A stretch of DNA of 22,901 bases, taken from positions 1 through 22,901 of the IMG/VR virus record IMGVR_UViG_3300025013_000010, one strand, 5' to 3'. Of the stretch, positions 1 to 18,898 are shown piece after piece; positions within the stretch are counted from its first letter, which is position 1, and each line of letters begins with the position of its first letter. A program made the translations under genes and the position numbers. Under the pieces are notes generated by a model, which did no database searches, was not told where the DNA came from, and saw only the letters and a program-made list of their open reading frames with translations. The stretch comes from a virus.

Positions 1-1213
1 CGCGAAGGTAACGGGCGTTGAGGGCCGAGGTGATGACGAAGTCGGCGATCTGCTCCAGGATGTGCTTGACGGTCTGCTGCCGGCGCCCCAGCATCTTGAG
101 TACCGGGAGGTCCATCTCGGAGGCAGTGGCGCGGTTGATATCGCCGCCGCCGCCGACCCAGTGCTCCGGGATGCCTTTGGGGGCGAGGATGTGGTTGCGC
201 AGGAGGCGTGCGCCGGTGTCGGAGTCGGAGGCGTTCTGGGTGGGGGATACCGCCTCGCTCTTCACCTTTTCGTTGTGGATGAACGCACCGCCGGAGCGGG
301 GGGGGCGGTATGCATTCGATTCCTTCTTGAGCTCCTCGTTGGTGGCACCCTCGACGGTGACATCGTAGTAGAAGGCGTTGTACTGGGAAAACTTCTCCAT
401 GGTGTCGGCCATGAACTGCTCGTAGCCGTCCAGGTGATCGGCGACCACGAAGAGGTCGGAGCAGCCGCGGGGCTCGTTGGTGAGGGTGTTCACCTTCCAG
501 TAGAAGCACTGGCCGTCGTCAAAGGCCTCCCTCAGCGCGCGGCCTTTGGGGGAGAGGATCTCGATCTCCTCGTCGCCGATGATGACGGCGAGCTTCCGGG
601 CGGGCTCGTTGTCCATGGTTTTGAGCCGGACGCCGATGAAGATCTTGACGTTGTAGGGGTCGGTGACGACTTCCTCGATGTCGGCGGGGTCGATGTACCC
701 CACCCGGACTTTTCCCGTGTTGGGGAGCACGAAGGCGGGGAGGCACAGTTCGCCAAAGACCCCCAGCTCGGTGACGTGCTTTTCGAAGTAGATGCTCAGC
801 TGGTTGGCGGCGTCCTCCCAGAAATCGGTCAACAGCTTTTTGACGTCTTCATTCTCGGAGGTGATGGGCATACCGCTTTCGACAACGAAGGCGACCACGA
901 TCTCGATGATGAACTGCGCCAGCGGGTTGGTTTTCCAGAGCCAGTAGCAGATCTCGAACATGCGCTCCTGGGTTGCGACCGGCAGGGTCCTGGTGGGGTT
1001 GCCGGTCAGCTTCCGGAAGCCGACTTCCTCAAAGGATAGAGAGGTGGCGGTGATGCGGGCCTGCAGCTCCTGCTCCACCCGGGCGGCGACCTGGGCGGCG
1101 ACCTGGGCGGGGAGCTCGCGGTCGATGCGGGAATTGACACCGGCGTCGACCAGGGTGGAGATCTGGTGGCCGAAAAGTTTTTCAGCCATAAATGTCATCA
1201 GCGAGCTTCGCAT
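1..1213 (-). CDS. Phage portal protein (partial, C-terminus off window)
   Basis: This frame is open from an ATG at 1213 to the left edge, giving about 404 residues with no stop in the window. The ATG overlaps the TGA of the large terminase by one base (TGATG) and has GGAGAGG upstream. A portal is the dodecameric ring through which the terminase pumps DNA into the head. Visible support is the position directly after the large terminase, the mixed alpha/beta body with acidic stretches, and the late segment GGGGDINRATASEM followed by a helix rich in Q, K and H, which resembles portal stem/clip regions. The N-terminus has a short VAAQ-type repeat and looks helical. By position it matches Mu gp29, but I do not recognise DUF935 signatures, so it may belong to another portal family. 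The portal assignment is firm from context; the family is not. Confidence 0.8.
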   Translation of the reverse strand, partial: MRSSLMTFMAEKLFGHQISTLVDAGVNSRIDRELPAQVAAQVAARVEQELQARITATSLSFEEVGFRKLTGNPTRTLPVATQERMFEICYWLWKTNPLAQFIIEIVVAFVVESGMPITSENEDVKKLLTDFWEDAANQLSIYFEKHVTELGVFGELCLPAFVLPNTGKVRVGYIDPADIEEVVTDPYNVKIFIGVRLKTMDNEPARKLAVIIGDEEIEILSPKGRALREAFDDGQCFYWKVNTLTNEPRGCSDLFVVADHLDGYEQFMADTMEKFSQYNAFYYDVTVEGATNEELKKESNAYRPPRSGGAFIHNEKVKSEAVSPTQNASDSDTGARLLRNHILAPKGIPEHWVGGGGDINRATASEMDLPVLKMLGRRQQTVKHILEQIADFVITSALNARYLR

Positions 1214-2907
1214 CAACCTCTCCTTCCAAACATGCGCCCAAAACCGTCGAAGAGGCGGCTGGTGCGCGGTACGTGGTAATCGTCTGCTACGGCCTCGACC
1301 GGGGCGACGGCGGCGGTGATCATTCCTCCCTCCAGGAGGCTCTTCAGCATCTCCAGCGCGTCCGGGCCGTCGTCGTGGCCGCCCTTGCCCTTGGCACGGT
1401 AGTAGATCAGGTGGCGGATCAGCTCACCCATGCCGTGCCGGCGGAACTTGATCCAGCCGTTTTTGATCCAGGGCTGCAGGGTGATGATGCGCAGGTCCTT
1501 ATCCTTGTTGGGCTTGACCGACTTGATGTTGATGGTCAGGCCCTTGGCGTGGGCCTCGGCCTGGAAGGTCTTGCTGAAGAACTCCTGGAACTGGATCTCC
1601 TCCATGGCGAACTCGTCGAAGCGATCGCGCTCGTGGTAGACCAGGATGTCGGTCATGATCCGGTCGGGCTGGCGCTTCTCGATGTCGGCCTCGGTCAGGT
1701 AGATGATGCCGTTTTTCATCTTGCCGCCCAGGATCGCGGAGGGGTCGGCGTGCTTGGACTTGCCCCCCAGGGAAGGGTCGCAGGCTCCGCCGTGCTTCAA
1801 TCCCTCCAGGTCGACCTCGTCATCGTCGTAGTACTGGATCCACTCCTCGAGGAAGACGGCGTCCTCGGGGTTGATCGGTTCGTTCTGCTTCTCGCTCTCG
1901 AAGTAGGCGGGGCCGTCGGAGACCCGCATCTTCATCAGGTAGTAGTACGGCTCCATCTCCGGCCAGAGCACCTCGGTGCCGGCAAGCATCTCGCTCTCGT
2001 TGGCGGCGTAGTAGTTGTCCGCCGCGAGTTCGGCTTCTTCCTTGCCTACGGTGATGTCGGCGTAGAGCTGCTCCCAGCGCTCCCAGAGTTTCACGGCGGG
2101 GGACCACTTGATGACGGCCTTCCACTTGCGACCTTTCCAGCCTGGCTTGACCAGGAGACGGGAGAGGAGCGAGTCGTAGTGCAGGATAGTGCCGACCACA
2201 ATGTAGACGGTGTCGGGCTGGCCGATTTTCAGGAGCGCCTTGAAGAACCAGTTCTCCAGCTTGCGGCGCTGCTCGGGGCTCTCTACCGACTCGTCGTTTT
2301 CCAGGTCGTCAATGATGACCAGGTCGGGGCGGCAGCTGCCGTGACGACGGCCCCTCAGCTTTTGCGATGCCCCGGCTGCCTCCATCTTGATGCCGTTTCT
2401 GGTGATGATCTTGCCGGTCCGCCACACCGGCCCCTCGCCGACTAGATCCGGAAAGTCCTGGGCGAGCCGCTCGTTGGTCTCCAGCTCGATCTTGATGAAG
2501 GAGAGGAACGACTCGGCCTGGTCTCTCGTTTCCGAAACGATGAGCGGGTACTTCCGTTTCTTGAAGGCGGCAACCCAAAGGGGGAGGCCAAAGCTGCCGG
2601 CGGTGCTCTTCGCGTTGCCGCGGGGCGCTGCGTTTGCTTCCTTGTCACCCTCGCCGGTCTGCACGGCCCGGTTGATCATGGCGAGGTAGCGCTCGGCGAA
2701 GTACTTGTGCAACCGGCTGGACGGCTTGCTAAAGTAGTGCGGGAAGTAGGTGCGGTTGAAGAAATCGAGGTCCTGTTCGGCGCGGGCCTTGCGCTCCTTC
2801 TGGGCCTTCTTGTCGTCAGGGAAGGGTCGGGCGCTCGCCTGTATCACCTGGCGCAGGGCCTCGACTTCCTTGTCGAACAGTTTTCTCTTCGCCGCGCTAA
2901 GCTGCAT
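1213..2907 (-). CDS. Phage terminase large subunit (Mu gp28-like)
   Basis: This 564-residue protein is the ATP-driven DNA packaging motor and nuclease. The N-terminal ATPase carries a Walker A-like APRGNAKST at about residues 94-102 and a Walker B DLVIIDDLE at about 195-203. A coupling-type GTILHYDSL lies near 239-246. The C-terminal RNase H-fold nuclease is suggested by ACDPSLGG (Asp 377) and HDDGPDALE near 511-519. The length is normal for the family. The ATG at 2907 has GGGAGCGGT just upstream and overlaps the end of the small terminase gene by 11 bases, indicating translational coupling. The downstream portal gene overlaps its stop. In Mu-like phages this protein performs headful packaging with host DNA attached to the phage ends. 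Confidence 0.95.
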   Translation of the reverse strand: MQLSAAKRKLFDKEVEALRQVIQASARPFPDDKKAQKERKARAEQDLDFFNRTYFPHYFSKPSSRLHKYFAERYLAMINRAVQTGEGDKEANAAPRGNAKSTAGSFGLPLWVAAFKKRKYPLIVSETRDQAESFLSFIKIELETNERLAQDFPDLVGEGPVWRTGKIITRNGIKMEAAGASQKLRGRRHGSCRPDLVIIDDLENDESVESPEQRRKLENWFFKALLKIGQPDTVYIVVGTILHYDSLLSRLLVKPGWKGRKWKAVIKWSPAVKLWERWEQLYADITVGKEEAELAADNYYAANESEMLAGTEVLWPEMEPYYYLMKMRVSDGPAYFESEKQNEPINPEDAVFLEEWIQYYDDDEVDLEGLKHGGACDPSLGGKSKHADPSAILGGKMKNGIIYLTEADIEKRQPDRIMTDILVYHERDRFDEFAMEEIQFQEFFSKTFQAEAHAKGLTINIKSVKPNKDKDLRIITLQPWIKNGWIKFRRHGMGELIRHLIYYRAKGKGGHDDGPDALEMLKSLLEGGMITAAVAPVEAVADDYHVPRTSRLFDGFGRMFGRRG

Positions 2908-3388
2908 ACCGCTCCCGGCCCCACTGGATCAGGTCGTCAAAATTGTTTTCCACCACGCGCGTCATGTCCGGGTCGATCTTGTTGCCGAACTCGATCAGGT
3001 CGCGCACGAAGGCGAGGAACATCTCGCCCTTCTGCTGGGCGATCCGCTCGGCGGCTTCCCGGGCGTTGCGGGAGCGCCGGTCGATGATGGCCTCGACCTT
3101 GGAGAGCGAGTCGAGGTAAGAGGCGGCCTGCAGCGGGGCCATGCGGATCTGCTCCATGATGGTGTCGCGCACCTGGAGAAGGTGTGCCTCATACCCTTCC
3201 TTGGCGGCGCGGGCCTTGTCCCACTCGTCCTGGTCCTCGCCGATGATCCTGGTGCGGGCCTTCCATTCGCTGAGGCTCTGGCGCGAGACGCCGAGGGTCT
3301 CCTCGATGTCGGTGAGGGTCTTCCCCTGCTCGACGAAGAGCATGCGCGCCACCGGCTCCAGGCGGCTCCTGTCCCCCTTGGCCGCCAT
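2897..3388 (-). CDS. DUF1804-type terminase small subunit
   Basis: This 163-residue protein is the likely small terminase, which recognises phage DNA and hands it to the large subunit. An N-terminal helix-turn-helix is visible in LTDIEETLGVSRQSLSEWKAR (about residues 24-44), followed by charged helices. This architecture is that of DUF1804 proteins of Mu-like phages. I chose the ATG at 3388 over an in-frame ATG at 3430 because it has AGGGAG upstream and overlaps the TAA of the preceding gene by one base (TAATG), the same coupling style used throughout this late operon. It overlaps the large terminase by 11 bases. Confidence 0.85.
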   Translation of the reverse strand: MAAKGDRSRLEPVARMLFVEQGKTLTDIEETLGVSRQSLSEWKARTRIIGEDQDEWDKARAAKEGYEAHLLQVRDTIMEQIRMAPLQAASYLDSLSKVEAIIDRRSRNAREAAERIAQQKGEMFLAFVRDLIEFGNKIDPDMTRVVENNFDDLIQWGRERYAA

Positions 3389-3633
3389 TAGCGCAGCTCC
3401 CTCTGCAGGCGGTTGATGTCGCTTTGGCATTTCTGCAGCTCGACCCAGACCATGGTGAGGTCGTCGGTCTGGCTCTGCACCTGGGGGATCTCCAGCTCGG
3501 TGAAGGGGGTCAGGGCTGTGTTGAGGCCCTGGCGGATGGCTGCGCAGAGCCCCTCGCCCTTGAGGATCAGACGCCTCTCGTTTTGTTCGAGCTCTGCCAG
3601 CTTTCCTTTCATCGCCGCGCGTTCCAGATTCAT
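3388..3633 (-). CDS. Small helical phage protein before the terminase genes
   Basis: This 81-residue protein is strongly helical (AELEQNERRL, QKCQSDINRLQREL) with a proline break near residue 50. The ATG at 3633 overlaps the stop of the upstream membrane-protein gene (ATGA), and its own TAA overlaps the next ATG, so it sits tightly inside the late operon. Position and character match the small coiled-coil proteins found between lysis and terminase genes in Mu (gp25-gp26 region). Their roles are not well defined. I do not recognise a specific family. Confidence 0.75.
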   Translation of the reverse strand: MNLERAAMKGKLAELEQNERRLILKGEGLCAAIRQGLNTALTPFTELEIPQVQSQTDDLTMVWVELQKCQSDINRLQRELR

Positions 3634-3977
3634 GATGGCCTCTCCACGTCTTTTTGTACCTTCGGGTCCTTGCGCATGATCGGGCAGAAGAGGTTGGCGT
3701 CGATGCGATCCTTCACCTGGGTCATGGTCTGAGTGGAGAGGACAATGATGTCCTGCAGCCCCTTCGCAACCTTTTCGTAATTGACCACCAGCTTCACGTT
3801 GTCCTCGTACATTTTGATCACGCCTTCGTGGCGCTTCTCCATGCCGCGGGAGATGAAGACCATGAAGATCCAAGGTCCCAGTACGACGGCGGCTATGATG
3901 GAGCCAATAGGCCAGGTTCCCACTTTTGAGATGATGGTTGAAATTGCAGTCAGGGCGGCGATTTGTTCAGGTGTCAC
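3630..3977 (-). CDS. Membrane-anchored coiled-coil phage protein
   Basis: This 115-residue protein has an N-terminal hydrophobic segment (WPIGSIIAAVVLGPWIFMVFI, about residues 22-42), a basic turn (SRGMEKR) and then a long helical, charged region. This is the layout of DUF2730-like proteins placed just before the small terminase in Mu relatives; a spanin-like or membrane-tether role is possible. The start is GTG at 3977, preceded by GGAGGATCGC and overlapping the upstream stop (GTGA). It overlaps the next gene by four bases. The exact function is unknown. Confidence 0.75.
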   Translation of the reverse strand: MTPEQIAALTAISTIISKVGTWPIGSIIAAVVLGPWIFMVFISRGMEKRHEGVIKMYEDNVKLVVNYEKVAKGLQDIIVLSTQTMTQVKDRIDANLFCPIMRKDPKVQKDVERPS

Positions 3978-4537
3978 GCGATCCTCCAGTGGGATGAGGG
4001 TTTAGCTTTTGTCGACTGTCGACGGCAGCGGTCACAGATGCCGCCATGTGGCCCCTTACGGTCTACCATGGTCAGGTTTGGCCGCTGGCAGAGCGGGCAG
4101 GTGCGTTTCGGGTGGCTAGGGCGCACCCGGCCCGATCCTCTTGGCGCCCTGCGTTGGTAGTGTGGGCTCTCAACCCATCTGCCATCTCCCATGGGTAACA
4201 GCGGGGGGAGCTTTGAGCCTCTGCCGCTTATGTGGTTCTGCCACTGCCAGTGATGCCGGGTACACCAGCCATGTTCGTTCAGCGTCTTATTTCCGTTCGT
4301 CGACTCCTTACATCCCATCACGCTGCAAGGCCGCCTGGAGCCGGCCCTCGATCCGCCCCGATATGTGAGGCCTTCGGCGATCTCCGCCGCGGTGACGATC
4401 ACTTGCAGCCGAGGGCGGGGCCAATAGGAGCCGCAGTCCCAGCATCGGGCAAACTCGACGGCTGTCGTGCCTGCATCCAGCCCTCGCTCGTAGTAGATCT
4501 CGCGGGTGAGGTACCCGCCGCATCGAGGGCAACGCAC
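3974..4537 (-). CDS. Multi-cysteine zinc-ribbon protein
   Basis: This 187-residue protein contains three cysteine groups. The first is an N-terminal ribbon with CPRCGG (residues 3-8) paired with CWDCG. The second is a central C/H cluster with CSVMGC and CTRHHW. The third is a C-terminal ribbon with CPLCQRP paired with CDRCRRQ. All look like structural zinc sites. The C-terminal CTRHH-type cluster followed by basic residues resembles HNH-like or homing-type zinc domains, but I cannot assign catalysis. The start is taken as GTG at 4537, because the reading frame upstream has no suitable ATG near the previous stop and GTG immediately follows it (TGATGTG). It sits in the late operon, so nucleic-acid binding during packaging or expression is inference. 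Confidence 0.65.
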   Translation of the reverse strand: MRCPRCGGYLTREIYYERGLDAGTTAVEFARCWDCGSYWPRPRLQVIVTAAEIAEGLTYRGGSRAGSRRPCSVMGCKESTNGNKTLNEHGWCTRHHWQWQNHISGRGSKLPPLLPMGDGRWVESPHYQRRAPRGSGRVRPSHPKRTCPLCQRPNLTMVDRKGPHGGICDRCRRQSTKAKPSSHWRIA

Positions 4538-4538
4538 A

Positions 4539-5000
4539 TCATTGCGTCCGGATCGTCGAGTAGTTGCCCAGGGCGGGGTTGCCCATGCGGTACACATTTG
4601 AGTTGCCTACCGCATCGATCAGCTCGACATGGGCCACCTTCCAATCCCCTGTTTGCGAGTACTGCGGCAAGGGCGCGGTGACTGAATAGGTGCCGCTGTT
4701 CGCAGTACCGCTGGTCCGCTGGCTGGCATCGAATCTCACGAATTTCATCTGAGAACCGGCGTTCGGGGGGATCAGGGTCAGCGTCCCGCGCAGGAAGCCC
4801 GTCAGGCCGTCCGTTATGGTCATGGCTGCAGTGACCGTCTGCTCACCGTTACTGGTATCAACGGTCTGCGGCGAGAGGGAAAACCCGGAGAGGGACGGGG
4901 CCGCCACGTCTTCAGTACCGAAGACATCGTCAAAGCAGCCGAGTGCAAAGCAGAAGAGAATCGCACTCAGGACAGTGAGGCTTGTCAAAATGGTTTTCAT
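4539..5000 (-). CDS. Predicted lipoprotein with beta-rich domain
   Basis: This 153-residue protein has a type II signal sequence with lipobox FALGC, cysteine at residue 22. The mature part is Thr/Ser-rich and beta-like: LSGFSLSPQTVDTSN, then TVTAAMTITDGLTG. This is typical of bacterial surface repeat or immunoglobulin-like modules. The ATG at 5000 has AGGAGCTGAC upstream. It lies between the tail-fibre-assembly-like gene and the zinc-ribbon gene. A lipid-anchored protein made by a phage may alter the host surface or block superinfection, but that is inference. It could also be virion- or lysis-related. Confidence 0.7.
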   Translation of the reverse strand: MKTILTSLTVLSAILFCFALGCFDDVFGTEDVAAPSLSGFSLSPQTVDTSNGEQTVTAAMTITDGLTGFLRGTLTLIPPNAGSQMKFVRFDASQRTSGTANSGTYSVTAPLPQYSQTGDWKVAHVELIDAVGNSNVYRMGNPALGNYSTIRTQ

Positions 5001-5008
5001 GTCAGCTC

Positions 5009-5752
5009 CTATACCTGCATGAGGTCAATGCCGATGGCAGTAGCCACAGCAAGAAGTTCGTCCATGGTCTGGGCGCCGTAGGCCCGGTCGATCAGGGCCT
5101 GCTGCAGGCCGAGAATCCTCCCGGACTCCCGGCGGAACAGTTCCACGTTCCCCAGGATCTTCTGGACCAGGTCCTCAAGGGTGATACCCCGGGACGAAGC
5201 CAGTGCGGCTATCATGGGTACCGGTGTCGAAGGATCGACCAGCCACGCCTCGGCTTCGCGTTGCTGCACGTGCCAGGTTTCGCGCTCGTGCCCGGCATAG
5301 GGGGTGGCAAGCCCCGCCAACTGCCGATCTCCCCAGCTTCTCGCGGCCAGTTCGGCATAGCCAGGGAGTTCCGGGAAGACCGAGACGATCTCGGCATAGC
5401 TCGCGGTCCCGGCGCTGTCCTCCCATAATTCAGCCCGAAGCTTGGGGTCTGCGCTGTAGACGTCCATGCTCCTGCAAGCCCATATCTTGCGGCTGAAAGA
5501 TGCGGGGTACACCGAGGGCGGCGCCGGGTTGAGACGATCCTCCATGTGCGAGGTTTCCGGCCCCCAGTGTCCCGGGGTCACTAAAACCTGCTCGGTCTCG
5601 ACGTAGTCACCGATCGGGTTGCCGTCATTGTCATAGGTGATGACAGGTTCGGGAGTCTCGTAAACCGGTTCGACCCAGCGAGGCTCGTCGGCAACCTCGA
5701 CCTGGATGATCTTCGGGGTGACCTGCGGGTGGTAGTAAATCGTGTATCCCAT
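5009..5752 (-). CDS. Tail-fibre-assembly-like protein (DUF4376-like C-terminus)
   Basis: This protein has 247 residues. The C-terminal third (ETWHVQQREAEAWL, then MIAALASSRGITLEDLVQKI and a helix ending near QALIDRAYG) has the pattern of the DUF4376 domain found in tail fibre assembly proteins and adjacent tail proteins. The N-terminal part is acidic and Pro/Glu-rich (VEPVYETPEPVITYDNDGNPIG). I chose the ATG at 5752 rather than the one at 5758, because AGGAG lies six bases before the former and directly abuts the latter. It follows the serine recombinase by about ten bases, a pairing reminiscent of Gin with fibre genes in Mu. A fibre-chaperone or fibre-associated role is likely but not proven. 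Confidence 0.65.
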   Translation of the reverse strand: MGYTIYYHPQVTPKIIQVEVADEPRWVEPVYETPEPVITYDNDGNPIGDYVETEQVLVTPGHWGPETSHMEDRLNPAPPSVYPASFSRKIWACRSMDVYSADPKLRAELWEDSAGTASYAEIVSVFPELPGYAELAARSWGDRQLAGLATPYAGHERETWHVQQREAEAWLVDPSTPVPMIAALASSRGITLEDLVQKILGNVELFRRESGRILGLQQALIDRAYGAQTMDELLAVATAIGIDLMQV

Positions 5753-5761
5753 ATGCATCTC

Positions 5762-6451
5762 CTATTCAGCGTGCCGTTTCAGGTGCTTGGACACCACCCT
5801 ATTGACCACGGACTGATTCCACGTGCCGCCGTTTTTTGCCGGTATCCCAGCCGCATTCAGCGTATTAGCGCACCACCGCGTGCTGCGACCTTGCTCACGC
5901 CAAGCACACATCTGCCGTAAATGACCCTGTTCCACGGGATCCTCTACCAGTCGACCATCATCCGTGGCTGCAAAACCGTATGGGGTGTGGCCGTAAACCT
6001 GCCCGTTGTCCCGCAGATGTCTTATGGCCGTGCGGGTTCTCTCTCCGATCAGTTCACGCTCCAGGGCGCACAACGCCGACAAAATCGTAAAGAGGAAGCA
6101 GCCCATGGCCGTAGTGGTGTCGATCTGCTCCTGGAGACTGGCGAGCCCGGCTCCTGCACGTTTGATACGTTCTGCTATCTCCATCAGGTCCCGCGTGCTG
6201 CGGCTGATCCGAGACAGCGAGTAAAAAACCAGGGTTGCTTTTTGCTTGCAGGCCATATCAAGAGCGGCCCGGAACTCCGGGCGGTTCTTGACCGATTTGC
6301 CACTGACCCCCGCGTCGCAGAACTCGCCGAGGACCTCCATACCCTGCTGCGCAGCGTAACTTCTGGCGCGCGACAGCTGCGCATCCAGGGAGACGCCCTC
6401 TTCGGCCTGGCCGGTAGTGGATACTCGGGTATAGATGACCGCCGTACTCAT
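5762..6451 (-). CDS. Serine-family site-specific recombinase
   Basis: This 229-residue enzyme has an N-terminal resolvase/invertase catalytic domain. YTRVSTTGQ places the nucleophilic serine at residue 11, SLSRISRSTRDL near 78-89 supplies the conserved arginines, and a long helix with ERELIGERTR near 131-140 forms the dimer arm. The remaining ~80 residues (VYGHTPYGF, then CANTLNAAGIPAKNGGTW) resemble the start of the Recombinase domain of larger serine recombinases rather than a simple Hin-type helix-turn-helix. The length lies between invertases and large integrases. The ATG at 6451 has GAGGCG upstream. Since phage integration is by the transposase, this enzyme more likely inverts or resolves a segment, perhaps for fibre switching. 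Confidence 0.9.
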   Translation of the reverse strand: MSTAVIYTRVSTTGQAEEGVSLDAQLSRARSYAAQQGMEVLGEFCDAGVSGKSVKNRPEFRAALDMACKQKATLVFYSLSRISRSTRDLMEIAERIKRAGAGLASLQEQIDTTTAMGCFLFTILSALCALERELIGERTRTAIRHLRDNGQVYGHTPYGFAATDDGRLVEDPVEQGHLRQMCAWREQGRSTRWCANTLNAAGIPAKNGGTWNQSVVNRVVSKHLKRHAE

Positions 6452-6459
6452 CGTCGCCT

Positions 6460-6789
6460 CTATAGCCCCGGTGGGGTGTAAATGCCGACTGCGCCATCGG
6501 CGGTGACCACCATGACGAGGTTACCCGCGGCGTCGCGCACCTCTAGCTTGTTCGCGGTACCAGGCTCCGTCGCTCCCTGGCGCAGGGTCAGCACCTGCGG
6601 CATCGCCTCCTTGACGGTCTTCCATTCGACGTTGCGGTCGGTGTGGGTGACCGGGTCATAGACGTACAGCCTGGCGGCATCCGAAGGTGCCGGGAGCAGC
6701 GGCTTTTCGTAGATTCGTGTCGCCTCGCCCGCCGCATAGCAGGTTCCTGCACAAAGACAGAGGCACAGCGCCATCAAAGTGTTTTTCAT
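6460..6789 (-). CDS. Exported protein with tail-fibre-like C-terminal motif
   Basis: This 109-residue protein has a signal peptide (MKNTLMALCLCLCAGTCYA, cleavage likely after CYA). The mature part ends with NKLEVRDAAGNLVMVVTADG, a strand-rich motif resembling those in phage tail fibres and trimeric surface proteins. It starts at an ATG at 6789 with AAGGAG upstream and overlaps the previous gene by ATGA. It precedes the recombinase by a few bases. A secreted protein with a fibre-like motif is unexpected, since fibres assemble in the cytoplasm; its function is unknown. Confidence 0.7.
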   Translation of the reverse strand: MKNTLMALCLCLCAGTCYAAGEATRIYEKPLLPAPSDAARLYVYDPVTHTDRNVEWKTVKEAMPQVLTLRQGATEPGTANKLEVRDAAGNLVMVVTADGAVGIYTPPGL

Positions 6790-7019
6790 GCGTCAGCTCC
6801 TTGCAAAATGGTTCCGGCCGCGCCCAGCAAAAACCCGTCAACTCCCATCAATCCTAGCTCCTCCACCGTCCCCGGGAACAAGGGGATCCCGATGCTGCCG
6901 ATTGGCCTGAAACCGGCGTCAATCCGGGCGGCAAGCTCCTGAAGCGGAACCACCCCGAGGGGAACCGAGAAGAGCGCCAGCCTGAAGGTGACACTGCCGG
7001 GCAGGCTCAATCGGATCAT
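6786..7019 (-). CDS. Hypothetical small phage protein
   Basis: This 77-residue protein is rich in Gly, Pro and Leu (PGSVTFRLALFSVPLGVVPL, then PIGSIGIPLFPGTVEELGL). It is linked by ATGA overlaps to both neighbours, which is the main reason to accept it. No domain is recognised and no clear membrane segment is seen. It may be a small tail, baseplate or fibre-related component given the genes around it, but that is only context. Confidence 0.6.
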   Translation of the reverse strand: MIRLSLPGSVTFRLALFSVPLGVVPLQELAARIDAGFRPIGSIGIPLFPGTVEELGLMGVDGFLLGAAGTILQGADA

Positions 7020-7384
7020 AAGGGGGCCTCGGGTAGCCCCTTGCGCAGCTTGAACTGGCCGGACATCAAACGGACACGGTAGCTGCCAGTCGGGCGGCCG
7101 CGCAGCACATAGTGATAGCTGATGCTGGCCGCAGGGTGATTTGCCGGGAGCAGAGCCTTCAGCACGTTCTCGTTGACTTCTATGGACAGCATGCCCAGGG
7201 CGGCGGTGACACTCCCGACAAAGTCCGCCTCAGTGGAGGATAGGGATTCGACGGCCACAAGCTCCAGGTCAGTGAAGGCGCTGAGATCGGCGGGCTGGCC
7301 ATCGATGGTCACCGCCACGGACTCCATGAACCCCGCATCAGTCCAGGCGATCAGGTTTATGTTGAGTGGGCGCTCACCGGCCAC
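7016..7384 (-). CDS. Hypothetical beta-rich protein, possibly virion-associated
   Basis: This 122-residue protein starts at GTG 7384 with GGAGG nearby (the GTG falls inside the preceding gene's last codons). The segment LNINLIAWTDAGFMESVAVTI followed by alternating polar and hydrophobic strands and NHPAASISYHYVLRG suggests a beta-sandwich such as those in upper baseplate or fibre-base proteins. It overlaps the Rz1-like gene upstream and the 77-residue gene downstream. A virion or fibre-base role is inference from fold character and position. Confidence 0.6.
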   Translation of the reverse strand: MAGERPLNINLIAWTDAGFMESVAVTIDGQPADLSAFTDLELVAVESLSSTEADFVGSVTAALGMLSIEVNENVLKALLPANHPAASISYHYVLRGRPTGSYRVRLMSGQFKLRKGLPEAPL

Positions 7385-7589
7385 GGCATTCCTCCAGCGC
7401 CTCTATGAGGCCCTCGTTATCCTGATAAAGGCGATCCAGTTCGCTCTTATTTACCGAGACTTGCGCATCCCCATCAACGACCACGTAGCGCCGCGAGCAC
7501 CCGGTCATGCTGATCAGCGTGGCGAGCGCTAAGAGCAGCAGGATCTCCCTTGCCAAGCGCCTTGCGGTAGTTCTGGATATTCGCTTCAT
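7374..7589 (-). CDS. Rz1-like outer-membrane spanin lipoprotein (nested)
   Basis: This 71-residue protein has a basic N-terminus, a hydrophobic stretch (ILLLLALATLI) and a lipobox SMTGC with cysteine at residue 31. A short periplasmic tail follows, with charged helical character. It begins inside the preceding 73-residue membrane-protein gene in a different frame, overlapping it by 116 bases, the hallmark arrangement of Rz/Rz1 spanin pairs. The ATG at 7589 has GGGAGCC upstream. As an o-spanin it would reach from the outer membrane to the inner-membrane partner and fuse the membranes at the last step of lysis. It is not proline-rich like classical Rz1, so the identity rests on the lipobox and nesting. 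Confidence 0.65.
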   Translation of the reverse strand: MKRISRTTARRLAREILLLLALATLISMTGCSRRYVVVDGDAQVSVNKSELDRLYQDNEGLIEALEECRGR

Positions 7590-7695
7590 GGTCGGCTCCC
7601 TGCTGCCGCTTCTGGTACGCCCTGATCCCCTCGACGACGAGGGGAAGCAGGTAGGCCAGGAGCGACAGGATGGCGGTGGTGATGGAGGTTGTCAT
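7474..7695 (-). CDS. Rz-like inner-membrane spanin candidate
   Basis: This 73-residue protein has an N-terminal membrane segment (ITTAILSLLAYLLPLVVEGI) followed by a charged helical tail (KRQQGADHEANIQNYRKAL). The start at 7695 overlaps the stop of the holin-like gene (ATGA), with no separate ribosome site, implying coupling. The lipoprotein gene beginning at 7589 lies inside its second half. Order and topology fit an i-spanin, but it is short for that class and could instead be a second small holin or antiholin. Confidence 0.6.
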   Translation of the reverse strand: MTTSITTAILSLLAYLLPLVVEGIRAYQKRQQGADHEANIQNYRKALGKGDPAALSARHADQHDRVLAALRGR

Positions 7696-8351
7696 TCGTG
7701 TGCGGGAGGCTTGGGCCCCGCGGCGGCCGGCTCCTCGATGATCTCACTCATGTAGGGAACCCCGGGGATCGGGATGGAGTACCCGCCCTCCTGGGGGAGC
7801 AGCGTCACAGCTTCGGAGGTGGCGCCGGCGCCGGGGATCTGGGCCAGCACGGAATGGACGATGTCCTCGGCCTGGGCTCGTGAAACCTTGGGGGAGAAGG
7901 AGAGGATGTGCTGGACCGCTATGTCGAGCTTGTTCACCCCGGTCAATTGCGTGGTGGTACCGGCCTTCTTTGCAGCCCATTCCTCGGCAAGGGCAACGCC
8001 CTGGGCGGCCAAGCGGAACAGGAAGTTGTTCTTCTCGGTAAGGGCCTGCACCTGGTACTTCTGGCCGAGACGGGTGAGGACCAGGGAGACGAGGCCAAGT
8101 ACCAGGGCGGTGATGATCGGGAAGACGGTCTGCTCAAGAAATGCCTGCAGCCCTGCGCCGAAGGTTGTCGCTGTTTCGGCCACCGTGTGGGCGGGGACCA
8201 TGTCGGCGGCAAAGGCGGGGATCACCCCGGCGACGAACAGGGTGAGTGCCAGGGCGATTTTGAACGGCAGGTCGACCCGGCAGTTCTTCGCGGTCCAGAG
8301 CATCAGGCCGGCCATCAGGACAAGGGTGGTGAAAAAGATAAACAGCAGCAT
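7692..8351 (-). CDS. Holin-like protein (LLH/superfamily 6 type)
   Basis: This 219-residue protein has three hydrophobic segments: residues 1-18, about 31-50 (FKIALALTLFVAGVIPAFAA) and about 77-95 (VFPIITALVLGLVSLVLTRL). A long helical cytoplasmic region and a Pro/Ala-rich tail follow. The sequence after the last membrane segment (EKNNFLFRLAAQGVALAEEWA, then KLDIAVQHIL) is the pattern I associate with LLH-type holins. It starts at ATG 8351 with AAGGAGG upstream and lies between the endolysin/lipoprotein genes and the spanin pair. It would form the inner-membrane lesions that release or activate the endolysin. The C-terminal extension is longer than a minimal holin. Confidence 0.7.
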   Translation of the reverse strand: MLLFIFFTTLVLMAGLMLWTAKNCRVDLPFKIALALTLFVAGVIPAFAADMVPAHTVAETATTFGAGLQAFLEQTVFPIITALVLGLVSLVLTRLGQKYQVQALTEKNNFLFRLAAQGVALAEEWAAKKAGTTTQLTGVNKLDIAVQHILSFSPKVSRAQAEDIVHSVLAQIPGAGATSEAVTLLPQEGGYSIPIPGVPYMSEIIEEPAAAGPKPPAHE

Positions 8352-8373
8352 TGGTGAGCCTCCTTTGGTTTGA

Positions 8374-8538
8374 TCAGCGTCTGATATCGAAATGGGCGTC
8401 TACCGAGGCGCCGGTGTAGGTGGATTGGCGGCCGTCCTCGTAGCTGGTCTGGCCGATGTTGCCTTTCAGGTTGTAGCCGGTGAGCTGGCTGCCGCAGCCG
8501 TAGAGGACCAGGAGCGGGAGGACCAGGAGCAGCTTCAT
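8374..8538 (-). CDS. Small lipoprotein in the lysis cassette
   Basis: This is a 54-residue reading frame read directly from the minus strand. The start ATG overlaps the endolysin stop by ATGA. The N-terminus MKLLLVLPLLVLYGC is a short signal with a lipobox-like LYGC (cysteine 15; Tyr at -2 is unusual). The mature part is about 40 residues, polar and Gly/Thr-rich, ending FDIRR. A small outer-membrane lipoprotein right after an endolysin suggests an envelope or lysis role, for example an extra o-spanin or a surface-modifying peptide. The family is not recognised. Confidence 0.65.
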   Translation of the reverse strand: MKLLLVLPLLVLYGCGSQLTGYNLKGNIGQTSYEDGRQSTYTGASVDAHFDIRR

Positions 8539-9203
8539 GCGGCCTTCTTCAGCGCCAGGTGCAGCTTCATGGCCGCATCGGCGATGCGCTGGGCACAGTC
8601 CATGCTGTTGATGATCCTGCGAGAATTGAGGAAGTCGCAGCGCTCGCCATCGATGTACCGCGGCAGACCGACGCCGGTGTAGGCGCCTTTGCGCATGGCG
8701 TAGCTCATGGTGCAGTAGGAGATTTCGAAATCCAGCATGTTGTCCGGGTCCCGCTGATCGTTGGGCTGGTCGCCGACGGTGAGGTCGAACTTGCGGCCGG
8801 TGCGAGCTTCGAAGCGGGCAACCACTTCCGGGTACTCCTTGCGCAGCGCCTGCTCGGCCATTTCGTAGTTGCTCTCGCCGGTGTTCTGGGCGAGCCCGCG
8901 GCCGGCGTAGTCGGCGCCCTCTTCGGGGGTGTCATTGCCCAACTCCTTGCCAACTCGGGTCTGGCTGCCGTAGCGCTTGATGAAATAGGCGCGGGTGCCG
9001 TACTCGTGGATGGGGCGCCAGGTATTGGCGGTCTCGTGCCGCACCGTGGCCATGATGTAGGCGGCCCAGCGCAGGTCTGTGATGTGCGGGTCGGCTTCGA
9101 GGGCGGCGAGCAGCTTCTCGATTCCGGTAACCTGCCCCTGCAGCAACGGACCGAAAGCAACGCGGTAGATATCGAAGAATGATTTTCGGTCGATCGGTTG
9201 CAT
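8535..9203 (-). CDS. Phage endolysin (GH19/lysozyme-like)
   Basis: This 222-residue enzyme should cleave peptidoglycan at lysis. ATVRHETANTW (Glu 57) and the glycine-rich ADYAGRGLAQNTGESNYE (about residues 98-115) match the active-site region of GH19-like phage endolysins. Glu 57 is the likely catalytic acid, with IHEYG close by (Glu 67). No signal peptide is visible, so export depends on the holin. The start is ATG 9203 with GGAGA upstream. It is the first gene of the late operon after the 255-base control gap, and its stop overlaps the lipoprotein start. Mu also places its lysozyme first in the late lysis region. Confidence 0.85.
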   Translation of the reverse strand: MQPIDRKSFFDIYRVAFGPLLQGQVTGIEKLLAALEADPHITDLRWAAYIMATVRHETANTWRPIHEYGTRAYFIKRYGSQTRVGKELGNDTPEEGADYAGRGLAQNTGESNYEMAEQALRKEYPEVVARFEARTGRKFDLTVGDQPNDQRDPDNMLDFEISYCTMSYAMRKGAYTGVGLPRYIDGERCDFLNSRRIINSMDCAQRIADAAMKLHLALKKAA

Positions 9204-9788: not shown

Positions 9789-10481
9789 TTACAGTATTAC
9801 CAGCCGACCACGGCCGCTGGCGTCGCGGAGCATCTGGTAGGTGGCTTGGTCATGACCCGGCTCTATTACCGTCAACTGCTGTCTGTCGTCTGCCCAGAAG
9901 AATCTCATATCCCACTGGTACGGCAGCCCGCCCAGCAGGGCCATGATCGCAACAACGACTTCGGACTGGACGGGAGGAAGCACGGGACGCTGTCCGCCCT
10001 CTGCATGCGGTTGGCGGATGTCCCAAAGCATTACGGCAATATCGGGCAGGGCGGAGGTGGGGCCTTCGGCGCCGCAGGCGGTACAGACAAGAAAGAAGCT
10101 GTCTTCGTCATCGATCTGCATGGAGTCGAGGTACATGTTGGTGCACGCGCAGAAAGGGCAGGGTTCAGCGTTGAGGACGGGAGACGATGGGGTCACGGCT
10201 TCTTTGTGCCCGGCAATAAAGCGATGTATCCCGGCGATTATGCTCCCCGCAGTCCCGGTGGGATCAGTGACAGGGACGTCCACGCCGCCGCAGGATATGC
10301 CGCCCAGGGCGGCTGCTACGGCGCGCCAGTGGGTGCTGTGCTGGGACAGAAGGACGCGCAGGTCCTCGTTTTCGTCCTTCATCTTATTGTAGGATGACTG
10401 GCAGCGTTCATGATACTCGGAGCAGGGGAATGAATAATCACACGGCCCGTCTTCTTGGATTAATGGTTCAACCTTGTTCAT
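9789..10481 (-). CDS. Lar-like restriction-alleviation zinc-ribbon protein with extensions
   Basis: This 230-residue protein has a central zinc ribbon: EPCPFCACTNMYL and, about 26 residues later, VCTACGAEGPTS, then AVMLWD. This is the pattern of Lar-type restriction-alleviation proteins (CPFCG, C..CGA.GP, W). Lar of Rac and related proteins relieve type I restriction. Here the first knuckle is CPFCAC rather than CPFCGG. An N-terminal region with CDYSFPCSEYHERC and a C-terminal region of about 65 residues extend beyond the usual short Lar. I chose the ATG at 10481 because AAGGAG precedes it, over an in-frame upstream start at 10517. Confidence 0.65.
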   Translation of the reverse strand: MNKVEPLIQEDGPCDYSFPCSEYHERCQSSYNKMKDENEDLRVLLSQHSTHWRAVAAALGGISCGGVDVPVTDPTGTAGSIIAGIHRFIAGHKEAVTPSSPVLNAEPCPFCACTNMYLDSMQIDDEDSFFLVCTACGAEGPTSALPDIAVMLWDIRQPHAEGGQRPVLPPVQSEVVVAIMALLGGLPYQWDMRFFWADDRQQLTVIEPGHDQATYQMLRDASGRGRLVIL

Positions 10482-10539
10482 GCCGTTTCTCCTTCGCGGG
10501 TTTAACACCCGCTCCACGCCAAGGCGTGAGCTAGATTCG

Positions 10540-11803: not shown

Positions 11804-12115
11804 TCACCCCAAAAGCGGGGTACCATCATCATCGCCAGTTGCCAGGTCGTCCCAATCCTGTCCACCTGGCACAGCAAAGCGCTCTCTGCTTCCGGTTAGC
11901 TCCCTGACCTTTGCGTTGAAGTACTCCCGCTTATTCATAAGCCGGAAGCCTTCGGGCATCTCCTCGGTGGCGAACTTCTCCAGCCGGGCTTTCATTTCGT
12001 CTCGGTCCGGATAATAGGCCATGCCCATGCCGATTGTGACCGTACCTGCGGTTTGCCCCTCATCGTTGATGATGGCTATTTTCAGTTCTATTTCTATCGG
12101 GCCTTGCATCCTCAT
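11804..12115 (-). CDS. Hypothetical phage protein
   Basis: This 103-residue protein has a strand-rich N-terminus (IEIELKIAIINDEGQTAGTV) and a helical middle with MPEGFRLMNKREYF, ending in a very acidic tail (DWDDLATGDDDG). The ATG at 12115 has AAGGAGAACC upstream and overlaps the stop of the methyltransferase (ATGA). The acidic tail suggests a protein-binding or DNA-mimic role, but nothing is recognised. Its coupling to the methyltransferase may mean a shared task. Confidence 0.7.
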   Translation of the reverse strand: MRMQGPIEIELKIAIINDEGQTAGTVTIGMGMAYYPDRDEMKARLEKFATEEMPEGFRLMNKREYFNAKVRELTGSRERFAVPGGQDWDDLATGDDDGTPLLG

Positions 12116-13026
12116 ATGGTTCTCCTTATCTCAGTGAAGATATCTGTTGCGACTATCGGACTGACGGCATTGCCTAACAAATGTATCGCAGGCTGTCTCT
12201 CCTTCGGGATGCGATAGCTAGCAGGGAAGCCCATCGCCAATTTTGCTTCTTGAGGCTGCAGCATCCTCATTCGGTTGCCGTCAATGATAGACCAGCGGTC
12301 TCTGGTGGTGATGGTGCCAATCGGCCGATGAATGCTGCGCCCGGTGGTCCCGCTGCCGGTCCCGTAGTAAGGCGCAACGAAACGATCACCGAAGCGTGCA
12401 CGGCCGGATGCTATCCTTCGAAGGGTCGCGGCACTTCGGCCGGGCTTGTCAATCCTGCTCCAGTCGGGATAGCTCCAGTCAATGACCTCGTTGATGCTGG
12501 CATGCTGCCGAGTCGGGAGGTCTAGGATCATCGGTGCCTTTGACCTTGTGCAGACCAAAAACAGCCTGACACGGTGCTGGGGTACGCCGTGATCCGCGGC
12601 GTCGACGATGTGCGGGCTGACCACATAACCCAGTCGGCTCATTGCGTCGAGCCACGCCGGATACAGCGTCCATGTGGCAAACTCAGATACGTTTTCAACC
12701 ACGACCACTTCCTCCCTGTGGTACTCGGCGCAAGAAACAACGGCCCAGGCGGTTGAACGTTGCAGGTCATGGTGAGGGCGGTCTTTCCCGCGAGCCCTGG
12801 CATGGCCCTGACAGCACGGGGAGGCCATCAGGATGTCGTGCGCTGGGACCTGGCTCCAGTCCGCCTGGTGAAGATCCTGGCAGGCGTGAAACGTTTCCGG
12901 GTGGTTGCCCGCATGACAGTCGACAGCAAGGCGCCAATGGTTTGCCGCCCACAGCACCTGAATACCTGCACCCGCTGCCCCGGTTGTGAACCCGCCCGCA
13001 CCTGCAAAGAGATCCACTCCAGTCAT
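12112..13026 (-). CDS. DNA (cytosine-5)-methyltransferase
   Basis: This 304-residue enzyme transfers a methyl group from S-adenosylmethionine to C5 of cytosine. Motif I is VDLFAGAGGFTTG (residues 4-16). Motif IV is ILMASPCCQGH (catalytic Cys 72), motif VI is VVENV (109-113) and motif VIII is QHRVRLFLV (150-158). The short target-recognition region includes GTITTRDRWSIIDG, and the conserved end is LLGNAVSP (283-290). The residue before the catalytic cysteine is Cys instead of the usual Pro (SPCCQ for PPCQ). It is short but appears complete. No restriction endonuclease lies beside it, so it is probably an orphan that protects phage DNA or changes transcription. The ribosome site is weak; the gene directly follows the lipoprotein stop. 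Confidence 0.92.
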   Translation of the reverse strand: MTGVDLFAGAGGFTTGAAGAGIQVLWAANHWRLAVDCHAGNHPETFHACQDLHQADWSQVPAHDILMASPCCQGHARARGKDRPHHDLQRSTAWAVVSCAEYHREEVVVVENVSEFATWTLYPAWLDAMSRLGYVVSPHIVDAADHGVPQHRVRLFLVCTRSKAPMILDLPTRQHASINEVIDWSYPDWSRIDKPGRSAATLRRIASGRARFGDRFVAPYYGTGSGTTGRSIHRPIGTITTRDRWSIIDGNRMRMLQPQEAKLAMGFPASYRIPKERQPAIHLLGNAVSPIVATDIFTEIRRTI

Positions 13027-15434: not shown

Positions 15435-15921
15435 GGTCTGCCTCCTTGGATTGCTTCATCGTGGTGATGGCCTTCATGACTTTCTCTACCTGGAACGCTT
15501 TGACGAAGCGGATCGACTCGACGCCGACGATCCGCTTGATGAACTTGTCCAGGGCCTTAGACTTGGCCTCGGCATTTTCAGCCCGGGAGACCTCGGACCA
15601 GGTGGCGGCCATGAGCCTGCACTGTGCTCCATTGGCCATGCCGGGGCGGCCGTCCAGATCGGCGAAGGGGAGGGGGCGCTTCCCCTTGGGAGAGGGGGTT
15701 CCCTTCTTGGTCTGCAGCTCGTCGATCAATTCCTCGGCCTGCCGCCAGGTGAGCACCTTGGAGCTGGTCACCCGGTCATCCTTGGCCACCTGCTGGAGCA
15801 GGGCTTCATAGCTGTCGCGGTCCATCCCCAGCGCCCCTTTGAGGGTGTGGATGATCTTGATCTGCCGCGGGGAGATGCGCTGCCCGCGCCCTGTCTGTTT
15901 GGCGGAGGAGTAGGTTCTCAT
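15406..15921 (-). CDS. gemA: Mu gp16-like regulatory protein GemA
   Basis: This 171-residue protein carries the DUF1018/GemA signature ISPRQIKIIHTLKGALGMDR, then YEALLQQV, then LTWRQAEELIDELQ. In Mu, GemA modulates host gene expression and DNA topology. The ATG at 15921 overlaps the ATPase stop (ATGA), with GGAG upstream. Position immediately after the transposition genes fits Mu relatives. A basic Pro/Lys spacer (KKGTPSPKGKR) separates the N-terminal signature from a less conserved C-terminal half. Confidence 0.85.
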   Translation of the reverse strand: MRTYSSAKQTGRGQRISPRQIKIIHTLKGALGMDRDSYEALLQQVAKDDRVTSSKVLTWRQAEELIDELQTKKGTPSPKGKRPLPFADLDGRPGMANGAQCRLMAATWSEVSRAENAEAKSKALDKFIKRIVGVESIRFVKAFQVEKVMKAITTMKQSKEADHVETTIDGV

Positions 15922-17183
15922 ATCGACTCCATAACCTCTGCGGTCACCCTGGTCTCGCCCATTTCGTGGGCCAGGTTGATGGCGCGCACGGCGTGCAGGT
16001 TGACGGTAAGCGGGTAGGCGTGGGAGATGTTCTTGCCGCGCTCGTCCTTGGTGGTCAGCCGGCTAGAGAGGACCGCTATAGCCTCGTCGGTGAAGACATC
16101 CTCCAGCTTGGCGCCCACGCGCTTGAACTTGAGCTGCAGGTATTCCTGGAGGTACTCGCCAAGCCCCTGGATGCGGGCGATCTGGATGCGGCGGATCACC
16201 TCGCGCATCTCGGGGTGGTGCCGCTCGTCGAGCTTGTCTCCCAGTTCGTTCTGCCCGATCAGGACGATGGAGATCAGCTTGTTGTAGCCGTCCTCAAGCT
16301 CCCAGAGCTGCTTCAGGGTCTTGAAGGCGGGGACGGTGAGGTTATGGGCTTCCTCTATCACCAGGCAGCAGCGGTCACCGTTGCGGCTGCGCTCGAGCAG
16401 CAGGTTCTTGACCTGGCGGGCCTTCTGCTCGTGCTTCACCTTGGGCCTCTGGTCGGAGACGTCCATGATGATGCTGTCGCAGAGCGAGGCGGAGGTGATG
16501 CGGTCTTTGTCCAGGATCTGAGGGAAAACAGTCAGGATCCCCCCTTCTTTGCGCAGCAGCTCGAATACGCGCTTGCGCATTACCGATTTGCCGCTGCCGA
16601 CCTGGCCTACGATGGCGATGAGCCCCGAGTGCTTGGCGGCGTCGAGCATGGATGCCTCGATGAAACGGTGCTCGTCGGACATGAAGATGTCGCCGTCTTT
16701 CTCCACCCCTCCGTTTGCGGGGAACGGGTCCCGGAACAGCTTGAAATGCTTCCTTGCTTCCTGCGTGATCATCTCTGCCTCCACATAAGGTATGAGTTCC
16801 TCCGGGTTCCCCGGAGCTAGTGCCCGTCTTTCGGCTTGTTTGCGACGGATATTGCGGTTGGTCTGACCTGCGGGCATCTTGCCGCGCAGGTTCTGGCCGA
16901 GCGGCAACCAGATGTCGGGAAGCCTCATCCCGCGCATCCCCAGGTAATCCATGGCTTTGGGATTGGCCTTTACGACGCCCTCGATATCATCCCGGAAGGT
17001 GGGGAAGGTTTCCGGCACGTAGCCGCGGTTCAGGCAGAGGTTGATGCTGGGGCGGGATGCGCCGGTTGCCGTGGCGAACTCCCCCTGGGTGATGCCGGCC
17101 TCTACCGCGAGTTCTTTAAGCCGGATCGGGGCGAATTCCAGGCTGAACTGCGGTATTCGCTCTAAATTCTTGGGTTTTGACAC
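15918..17183 (-). CDS. MuB/ExeA-type AAA ATPase, transposition target protein
   Basis: This 421-residue ATPase should choose target DNA and activate the transposase. An N-terminal helix-turn-helix (LKELAVEAGITQGEFATATG, about residues 22-41) precedes a basic linker (NRNIRRKQAERR) and the AAA module. Walker A is GQVGSGKS (193-200), Walker B is LVIEEAH (284-290 region) and a sensor-like SIVLIGQNE follows near 305-313. MuB also pairs an N-terminal helix-turn-helix with the ATPase, but the protein is longer than MuB and its core resembles ExeA/TniB-type ATPases. The start is GTG 17183 with AGGAGG upstream. It directly follows the transposase. Confidence 0.9.
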   Translation of the reverse strand: MSKPKNLERIPQFSLEFAPIRLKELAVEAGITQGEFATATGASRPSINLCLNRGYVPETFPTFRDDIEGVVKANPKAMDYLGMRGMRLPDIWLPLGQNLRGKMPAGQTNRNIRRKQAERRALAPGNPEELIPYVEAEMITQEARKHFKLFRDPFPANGGVEKDGDIFMSDEHRFIEASMLDAAKHSGLIAIVGQVGSGKSVMRKRVFELLRKEGGILTVFPQILDKDRITSASLCDSIIMDVSDQRPKVKHEQKARQVKNLLLERSRNGDRCCLVIEEAHNLTVPAFKTLKQLWELEDGYNKLISIVLIGQNELGDKLDERHHPEMREVIRRIQIARIQGLGEYLQEYLQLKFKRVGAKLEDVFTDEAIAVLSSRLTTKDERGKNISHAYPLTVNLHAVRAINLAHEMGETRVTAEVMESI

Positions 17184-17212
17184 CTTGTCACCTCCTGAAT
17201 GAAATGGCGGAT

Positions 17213-18898
17213 CTACTGCGCCTGTGCCAGCTTGGCGCCCGTCTCGCGCCAGTCGTTTCCTGCACAGATTGCCTCAATGACCGTCTCTGCGACCCGTACT
17301 TCGATCGCGTCACCGTACTGCTGCCGCAACTCCTTGTTGAGCGCGGGTGTGATGATGCCCCCTGCAGCGCGCAGGCGCTTGAAGAACTCCATGATGGGGA
17401 TCTGCGCGGGGGTGGTGTCCCGGGTGACCTCGATGGGCGTTCCGCGGCGGGGGAGTGCTGCGACGTTGTCGACCTTTTCCGCGAAGCCCTCGAAGGCGTT
17501 GAGACCCGCGAAAGGGGTGGTCTTCTTGTCATGCTCCTTACTACCGGTGGCGAGTTCCTCGAGGCGCTTGATGGTCTTCTGTGTCTGAGTTTCCGGCTGA
17601 GCTTTGTACTCCTGGCCGATGATGGCTGCATTGACCGCGAAACCACCCTGCTCGGCCGGCAGACGCTCGATGCAGCGGGCCTCGTAGAGCTTGTTGTCGT
17701 AGGCGACGGTGATGATGCCGTCCTTGTACTTCCAGATGTTGCGGATGACCTTGACCACGGTGCCGTGCGGGATGTTGGCGTGCTTCAGGTTGAACACCTT
17801 GCTGTCGTAGCTGATCTTGTGGTTATTGACCGTGCGGGTGACCTCGGGCTTGTTCATCAGGTCGTAGAGCTCGGAGCGATCGGGGAGTTCGCGCAGCTGC
17901 TCCGGCTTGATCATGAGCCAGCAGGAGAGGCGCGGCATCTGGGTGCGGGTGTGCTTGCGCGTGGCGTTGAACCAGATGCAGAAGCCGCGGGCCTTGCGGT
18001 TCAGATCGTCGATGGTGTGGGCCGGATCGATTCGTAAGCGGGTCTCGAACCATTGCTCCCAGATGTTGTGGGACTGCTCGACGCTCCCCTGGCGGCGGGA
18101 GTTGCCGGTGGTGCCGGGGATGATTTCAACAGAGATCCCGTCCCAGAGCTGCTGTCCCAGGGCCTTGGCTTTGGCCCTGCAGCCGCCGTCCATGAGCATC
18201 TGAAAGGGCGCCCCCCTGAAGGGGAAGTTCAGCTCCGGCTTGGCCTCCCAGGCGCGGCAGAGGAAGTCGAAGAGGTTCTCGGCCGTTTCGCCGGCGGCGA
18301 GGTAGTAGTAGACGAACATGAAGCCCGAAAAGTGGTCGGTGAGGATGTAGCGCTGCAGCGGGATCTTGACCTTCTGGAAGTTGGCGAACTTGTTCTTGTA
18401 GAACTCGTCCTCGCGCATGATCGCCATGCCCTTTTCGTCCAGGTAGTACTGGATGCAGGTCGAGACGTCGACCTGGTGTACATGGTTCGGGTGCAGGGAG
18501 CGCATCTCGGTATGTGGGGTGGGTGCGTTCATGTTGTCCTTGCTTAACTGGCGCTGCCTGAGCACCCTTTGCATGCCGCCCACGCTGATCTCCCCTCTGG
18601 TCATGATGCCGTTGTCTATGGCGAATTCCATGGCGTTCTCCACCGGCATGATCGGCCCCTTGTTCTCGCGGCCGGTCTTGTAGATGACGGCGGCGACGAA
18701 CTCGATCTGCTCCTCGGCCAGCGTGCCGAGCCCCTTGTCCGCGCGCTCCTTGCGGCCCGTGGCGAAGCCGTGTTCCCGCGCTATCCGGTACAGGTGCTCG
18801 GTGCTGTACCCGTAGAGCTGCTGGTACCGCTTGAGCACCTCTTTGCGCTCCCGGGACTTCTTTTCATTCAGCTCTACGACCAGTTCTCGCTGCCACAT
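17213..18898 (-). CDS. Mu-like DDE transposase
   Basis: This 561-residue transposase drives phage integration and replication. The catalytic triad is visible: Asp 144 (HVHQVDVS), Asp 237 (QMLMDGG) and Glu 274 (GSVEQSHN). Upstream are helix-turn-helix-like end-binding segments (YSTEHLYRIAREHG; VGGMQRVLRQRQL). Downstream is a Mu-transposase-type beta-barrel (RTVNNHKISYDSKVFNL to AYDNKLYEARC). It is somewhat shorter than MuA, lacking an obvious MuA-like N-terminal enhancer-binding domain. The C-terminal segment could contact the ATPase. The start ATG 18898 has GGGGGCC upstream. Confidence 0.95.
   Translation of the reverse strand: MWQRELVVELNEKKSRERKEVLKRYQQLYGYSTEHLYRIAREHGFATGRKERADKGLGTLAEEQIEFVAAVIYKTGRENKGPIMPVENAMEFAIDNGIMTRGEISVGGMQRVLRQRQLSKDNMNAPTPHTEMRSLHPNHVHQVDVSTCIQYYLDEKGMAIMREDEFYKNKFANFQKVKIPLQRYILTDHFSGFMFVYYYLAAGETAENLFDFLCRAWEAKPELNFPFRGAPFQMLMDGGCRAKAKALGQQLWDGISVEIIPGTTGNSRRQGSVEQSHNIWEQWFETRLRIDPAHTIDDLNRKARGFCIWFNATRKHTRTQMPRLSCWLMIKPEQLRELPDRSELYDLMNKPEVTRTVNNHKISYDSKVFNLKHANIPHGTVVKVIRNIWKYKDGIITVAYDNKLYEARCIERLPAEQGGFAVNAAIIGQEYKAQPETQTQKTIKRLEELATGSKEHDKKTTPFAGLNAFEGFAEKVDNVAALPRRGTPIEVTRDTTPAQIPIMEFFKRLRAAGGIITPALNKELRQQYGDAIEVRVAETVIEAICAGNDWRETGAKLAQAQ

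Follow-up and report, generated by a model that had tools for sequence, protein, structure and literature searches.

A probable accessory fibre-type module with a compact serine recombinase at the lysis–packaging junction of a Mu-like phage

The G-segment of phage Mu combines the S–U fibre genes with the gin invertase, and phage invertases are typically found between fibre and assembly genes. Serine resolvases resolve cointegrates for transposons of the Tn3 type. The P2-like phage KS14 encodes a Gin-like serine recombinase of 225 aa, gp6, which has no integration role (PMC3091744). A host-recognition module is common to the unrelated Alteromonas phages A5, V22 and P24 (PMC10579305, PMC7289586), in which a fibre gene is followed by a gene for a DUF4376-type protein and the two are swapped as a unit between unlike phages. 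The DUF4376-type protein of V22, gp27, has been shown to be a fibre chaperone (PMC7289586).

The locus described here shares features with each of several such systems. As in the Mu G-segment, a serine recombinase lies near fibre and assembly genes of a Mu-like phage, but neither inverted sites nor inverted alternative genes were found in the block, its recombinase has a C-terminus of another type, and it is placed between lysis and packaging genes. As in the Alteromonas module, fibre-type and DUF4376-type genes occur together; however, the fibre-like protein is much shorter and is exported, the set sits between lysis and terminase genes and includes a serine recombinase and a zinc-finger gene, and no sequence similarity was detected between its DUF4376-like protein and V22 gp27. 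The recombinase resembles KS14 gp6 as a short enzyme of a temperate phage without an integration role, although it is not Gin-like. With the large serine integrases of Bxb1 and TP901-1 it shares the catalytic domain and the start of the recombinase domain, but it ends after approximately 60 residues of the latter and lacks the zinc ribbon and coiled coil; no att sites were found, and the phage integrates by a MuA-type transposase. With a probability of roughly 0.6, the block is an accessory fibre-type module (for the host surface or host recognition) that was brought into the lysis–packaging junction by ordinary module exchange, replacing a DksA-like gene, with a recombinase that is maintained but is not a demonstrated mover.

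Setting and gene content of the block

The window, the whole stretch of 22,901 bases analysed here (record IMGVR_UViG_3300025013_000010), covers part of a Mu-like phage genome, and most of its genes are encoded by the minus strand. Its order is transposase, MuB-like ATPase, gp16-like gene, lysis genes, the block, terminases and a portal gene truncated at the contig end. The block comprises seven co-directional minus-strand genes at 3974–7384, between the lysis and packaging genes.

17213–18898, MuA-like transposase
15918–17183, MuB-like ATPase
7374–9203, endolysin, holin and Rz-like lysis genes
7374–7589, minus strand, Rz-like spanin gene, left flank (weak PHROG Rz match, E of 0.03)
7016–7384, minus strand, g122, BppU-like adaptor-type protein, first gene of the module
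6786–7019, minus strand, g77, small protein
6460–6789, minus strand, exp109, exported short fibre-like protein with a signal peptide and a fibre-like C-terminal motif
5762–6451, minus strand, rec, compact serine recombinase of 229 aa (PF00239, 4e-38; PF07508, partial)
5009–5758, minus strand, d249, DUF4376-like, probable fibre-associated assembly protein
4539–5000, minus strand, lipo, exported putative (lipo)protein with a DUF7035 Ig-like domain (Pfam, 5e-11)
3974–4597, minus strand, zn, multi-CxxC zinc-finger protein
3974–3996, minus strand, 3′ tail of the displaced DksA-like gene, fused to the end of zn (aligned to the dksA ends of L004/L005 and the zn stop of L052)
3630–3977, minus strand, resident gene (phrog_25899), right flank, upstream of the terminase genes
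1213–3430, small and large terminase

The accessory genes named in the first-pass annotation are all present on the minus strand, flanked by lysis and terminase genes, including the 229-residue recombinase at 5762–6451 and the exported protein with a fibre-like motif at 6460–6789; its statement that integration is left to the transposase agrees with the MuA- and MuB-like genes at 15918–18898. The limits it gave, 4539–7384, enclose these genes but are too short. The block starts at 3974, with zn counted in because its homologues in phage records L052 and G434 accompany the module. The grouping is more than chance, as other phages carry this string of genes too. The GC3 of the block (0.68–0.77) differs from that of the packaging, lysis and transposition genes (0.83–0.88). 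Elsewhere in the window, a C5-cytosine methyltransferase-like gene (12112–13026) and a Lar-like restriction alleviation gene (9789–10517) suggest early anti-restriction functions, and the contig end (22229–22579), beyond a repressor-like gene (21260–21679), codes for a small exported protein.

The adaptor-type protein g122 is homologous to a 122-aa protein encoded at the head–tail junction of L007 (blastp 3e-13; alignment score of 136, where 500 shuffles reached no more than 59). It matches phrog_1084 weakly, and its counterparts in L053 (1e-5) and L076 (4e-12) have phrog_1084 as their best match; direct comparison of g122 with a profile of the L052, L053 and L061 proteins was not significant. 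Genes of 81–88 aa in L053, L052 and G434 correspond to g77 by position and are weakly alike in sequence, a mainly positional link that weakens the module comparison. The exp109 family is found in L052, L053 and G434 (blastp 5e-9 to 9e-16 with the window protein), and its C-terminus matches an exported collagen-like fibre of L076 (5e-4).

The d249 protein has been described as DUF4376-like, which holds by fold in structure comparison; there is no Pfam DUF4376 match, and homology to V22 gp27 was considered and dropped because sequence similarity was not detected. Genes with its C-terminal domain come immediately downstream of fibre genes in Pasteurella phage Pmp6, L077 and L078, and adjoin a fibre-type gene in L102/L103. 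A fibre-associated assembly protein is therefore its probable identity. Among host genomes, the search covered one phylum, that of Desulfovibrio cuneatus, and yielded only weak matches to d249; a search of annotated phages with the block genes returned no match for exp109, lipo or zn. The identities of d249 and lipo to their L052 counterparts are 73% and 80%. The gene previously called a lipoprotein does encode a putative one, with a lipobox that is off the usual consensus (ALGC; GIGC in L052).

Signal peptides, called by eye, are present on the exp109-type protein in all four phages, on the DUF4376-like proteins of G434 and L076 and on the BppU-like protein of L076. The products of the block may serve adsorption or function on the cell surface. 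A signal peptide fits poorly with a virion fibre assembled in the cytoplasm, which makes a cell-surface role of exp109 as possible as one in adsorption. These peptides favour the reading that the module is a lysogenic-conversion set, whose exported products cover or modify the surface of the host, as in superinfection exclusion for instance, and are not part of the virion. Set against this are the fibre-type gene neighbourhood and the position of the block, which runs in the same direction as the lysis and packaging genes on either side and would be expected to be expressed late, and we regard lysogenic conversion as possible but the weaker account of the gene set. 

Signal peptides also begin fibre-like or collagen-like proteins, some of more than 1000 aa, at L004:18150–21689, L007:18169–21171, L112:1496–7756 and L076:8168–10534; the BppU-like, fibre and DUF4376-like proteins of L076 each carry one. 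Virion fibres would not be expected to have them. Several relatives encode small exported proteins between their capsid and head–tail genes (L111:5602–6054, L004:17040–17480 and L052:978–1670).

The block site in related phages

Relatives were gathered by their large terminase (50 loci), and the comparison with phages lacking the block that had been proposed earlier could be made. The nearest relatives that show the region, L002, L004 and L005 (TerL identity of 76–88%), have none of the seven genes there. The site is occupied by one DksA-like zinc-finger gene of 72–74 aa (phrog_54, 2e-25), between the Rz-like gene, 71–86% identical to that of the window, and the resident phrog_25899 gene upstream of the terminases, which is 77% identical and directly follows the DksA-like gene. 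At the left junction, the end of the Rz-like gene overlaps the start of g122, and g122 begins exactly at the position of the relatives' dksA start. At the right junction, zn leaves the ending found in L052 and enters the last dksA codons, so that the aligned C-terminal ends read HWRIA in the window and HWRN or YWRS in the relatives. The replaced stretch runs from the dksA start to approximately eight codons before its stop. The block therefore took the place of dksA, with both joins at ORF borders, a pattern typical of module exchange among phages.

Similar gene sets occur in other Mu-like phages. In L052, which encodes a tail sheath, the same seven genes stand in the same order between gp36-like and gp37-like genes. 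In G434 (L118, 42.9 kb) the module lies between the endolysin and terminase genes with dksA kept, in the order BppU-like, small, exported fibre-like, rec, zn, d249-like, phospholipase-like, lipoprotein and dksA. The module of L053 lacks rec, lipo and zn and lies between the lysis genes and dksA, and the gp36 and gp37 genes of this phage are adjacent. L004 and L007 carry BppU-like, small and exported fibre-like genes, without rec, between capsid and tail genes. The adaptor-like, fibre-like and assembly-type genes of a fibre module thus occur together, in an order conserved in the window, L052, L053 and G434. A small phospholipase-A2-like gene (motif CDIHDWMY or CNIHDWMY) is found in the lysis region at L053:8641–9057, L028:44–382 and G434 (L138):17785–18162.

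The module therefore takes two positions, the lysis/dksA junction (G434 and L053) and the head–tail junction (L052, with looser versions in L004 and L007). Because it is found at either one with or without rec, a relocated fibre-type module is supported; rec, being both present and absent at the two positions, is neither needed for relocation nor a marker of it. Of the earlier suggestion of a relocated host-range switching module, the fibre-type character and variable position are retained, whereas switching is not, given that crossover repeats did not exceed shuffles in the window, L052 or G434 and that no opposite-strand alternative was seen in the block. Under the preferred reading, module exchange would have carried a fibre-type set into the lysis–packaging junction, comprising the BppU-like adaptor-type, small, exported fibre-like, DUF4376-like, Ig-like (lipo)protein and zinc-finger genes. 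The incoming set replaced the small DksA-like gene, and zn is now fused to the dksA tail.

The recombinase and its zinc-finger neighbour

The rec protein matches PF07508 over profile positions 3–50 of 102 and retains the catalytic arginines and serine. Its AlphaFold model is confident (pLDDT of 87) and shows a long helix and a small recombinase domain in addition to the catalytic domain; the best PDB fold match is Bxb1 integrase, followed by TP901-1. The first-pass annotation had noted part of a large-recombinase C-terminus; that part is present, but the protein is not a truncated large integrase, a reading ruled out by the widespread relatives of the same length and C-terminal motif in several bacterial groups, archaeal contigs and other viral records. 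Instead, rec is a member of a compact family of serine recombinases that combine the catalytic domain with a short recombinase domain.

The protein is 70% identical to its counterpart in L052 and 65% to that in G434. Between the window and L052, the catalytic domain is 84% identical, with pN of 0.13 against pS of 0.76; synonymous sites are saturated and yet pN is low, so that the protein is functional. The rec gene is thus intact, and purifying selection on it is strong. In the same pair, the DNA-binding part is 39% identical. A mosaic swap of the C-terminus was considered and set aside, as synonymous sites are saturated throughout and a swap would look the same as fast divergence. The pS values of d249, lipo and zn (0.48–0.55) lie below that of rec, which indicates that rec has its own history.

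In all three phages that encode it, rec directly follows the exported fibre-like gene, with a stop/start overlap in G434, and zn accompanies it. The zn protein is 79–80% identical to that of L052 and 43% to that of G434, and was found in two of 42 other phage records, both rec-positive. A check of the genes around other recombinase family members showed that a zinc-finger neighbour is not a general feature. The idea that zn stands in for the zinc ribbon that rec lacks and a large integrase would have was left as speculation, as zn has no match to the Pfam recombinase zinc-ribbon family.

Crossover sites near 4.5–7.4 kb, proposed earlier as a check, did not emerge: direct and inverted repeats of 20–30 bases in the block, the window, L052 and the 42.9-kb G434 did not exceed shuffled sequence, at a few shuffles per test and in a window and L052 that are fragments, so that short att-type, weak or single sites could be missed. 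The best direct repeats of G434 (22/24), one match above two shuffles, lie inside unrelated coding regions. There are no repeats at the block ends, where attL and attR may share just a few bases, and none in the gap of approximately 10 bases on each side of rec, where res sites were sought.

The earlier alternative of a mobile cassette moved by its own recombinase was not borne out. On such an account rec, with zn as helper or directionality factor, would be an integrase-like mobility enzyme that inserts and excises the module and so gives rise to its two positions. The constant pairing of rec with zn, the Bxb1-like fold and the divergence of the DNA-binding domain (39%, against 84% for the catalytic domain) between phages with different module positions are in its favour. 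It is made unlikely by the lack of end repeats, by a dksA that was deleted and fused and not cleanly split or left flanking, by rec-less modules at both positions and by the different synonymous divergence of rec and its neighbours. The zinc ribbon and coiled coil of a large serine integrase were also not found in the 229-aa protein, and the zinc-ribbon family match is missing from zn.

The neighbourhood of rec, between fibre-like and assembly-like genes, is the usual one of a phage invertase, the relatives of d249 follow fibre genes, and the PF00239 catalytic domain that an invertase would have is present. A Gin-like switch of tail-fibre variants, with its target in the block or in the tail region, is nevertheless improbable. 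The C-terminus is a recombinase domain (PF07508) and the HTH_7-type DNA-binding domain of invertases, of approximately 45 residues, is absent; inverted crossover sites flanking a segment did not rise above shuffles in the window, L052 or G434, and no oppositely oriented alternative fibre or assembly gene was seen in the block when the ORF lists were read. Besides the window, a PF00239 match was obtained in one of 38 related records (G434 was found later), leaving 37 without it. The contig lacks the tail half of the phage, which places its own main fibre genes outside this comparison.

That all three rec-positive phages are Mu-like would suit a resolvase for cointegrates or dimers arising from replicative transposition, as serine resolvases provide for Tn3-type transposons. 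Nearly all related transposing phages do without rec, however, and the approximately 10 bases beside it hold no res-like repeats, which makes this the least probable of the roles considered.

For the accessory module as preferred here, rec would most likely act on a short site elsewhere or be a self-serving passenger gene; its strongly conserved catalytic domain argues for a useful role, which a pure passenger reading underplays. A more speculative proposal, to which we give little credence, is that rec and zn work as a serine recombination system of two components, in which a separate protein contributes the zinc finger. Such a system would act on the fibre-type modules of Mu-like phages, and rec would change its DNA-binding domain whenever a module occupies a new position. 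If rec and zn do cooperate, this would be a type of recombination system without a description in the literature searched. As it stands, the locus shows a fibre-type module that changes position within one group of transposable phages, here replacing a defined resident gene at a junction read to the base. Beside its fibre-type genes sits a compact serine recombinase under strong selection, which in the phages seen is always accompanied by the same zinc-finger gene.
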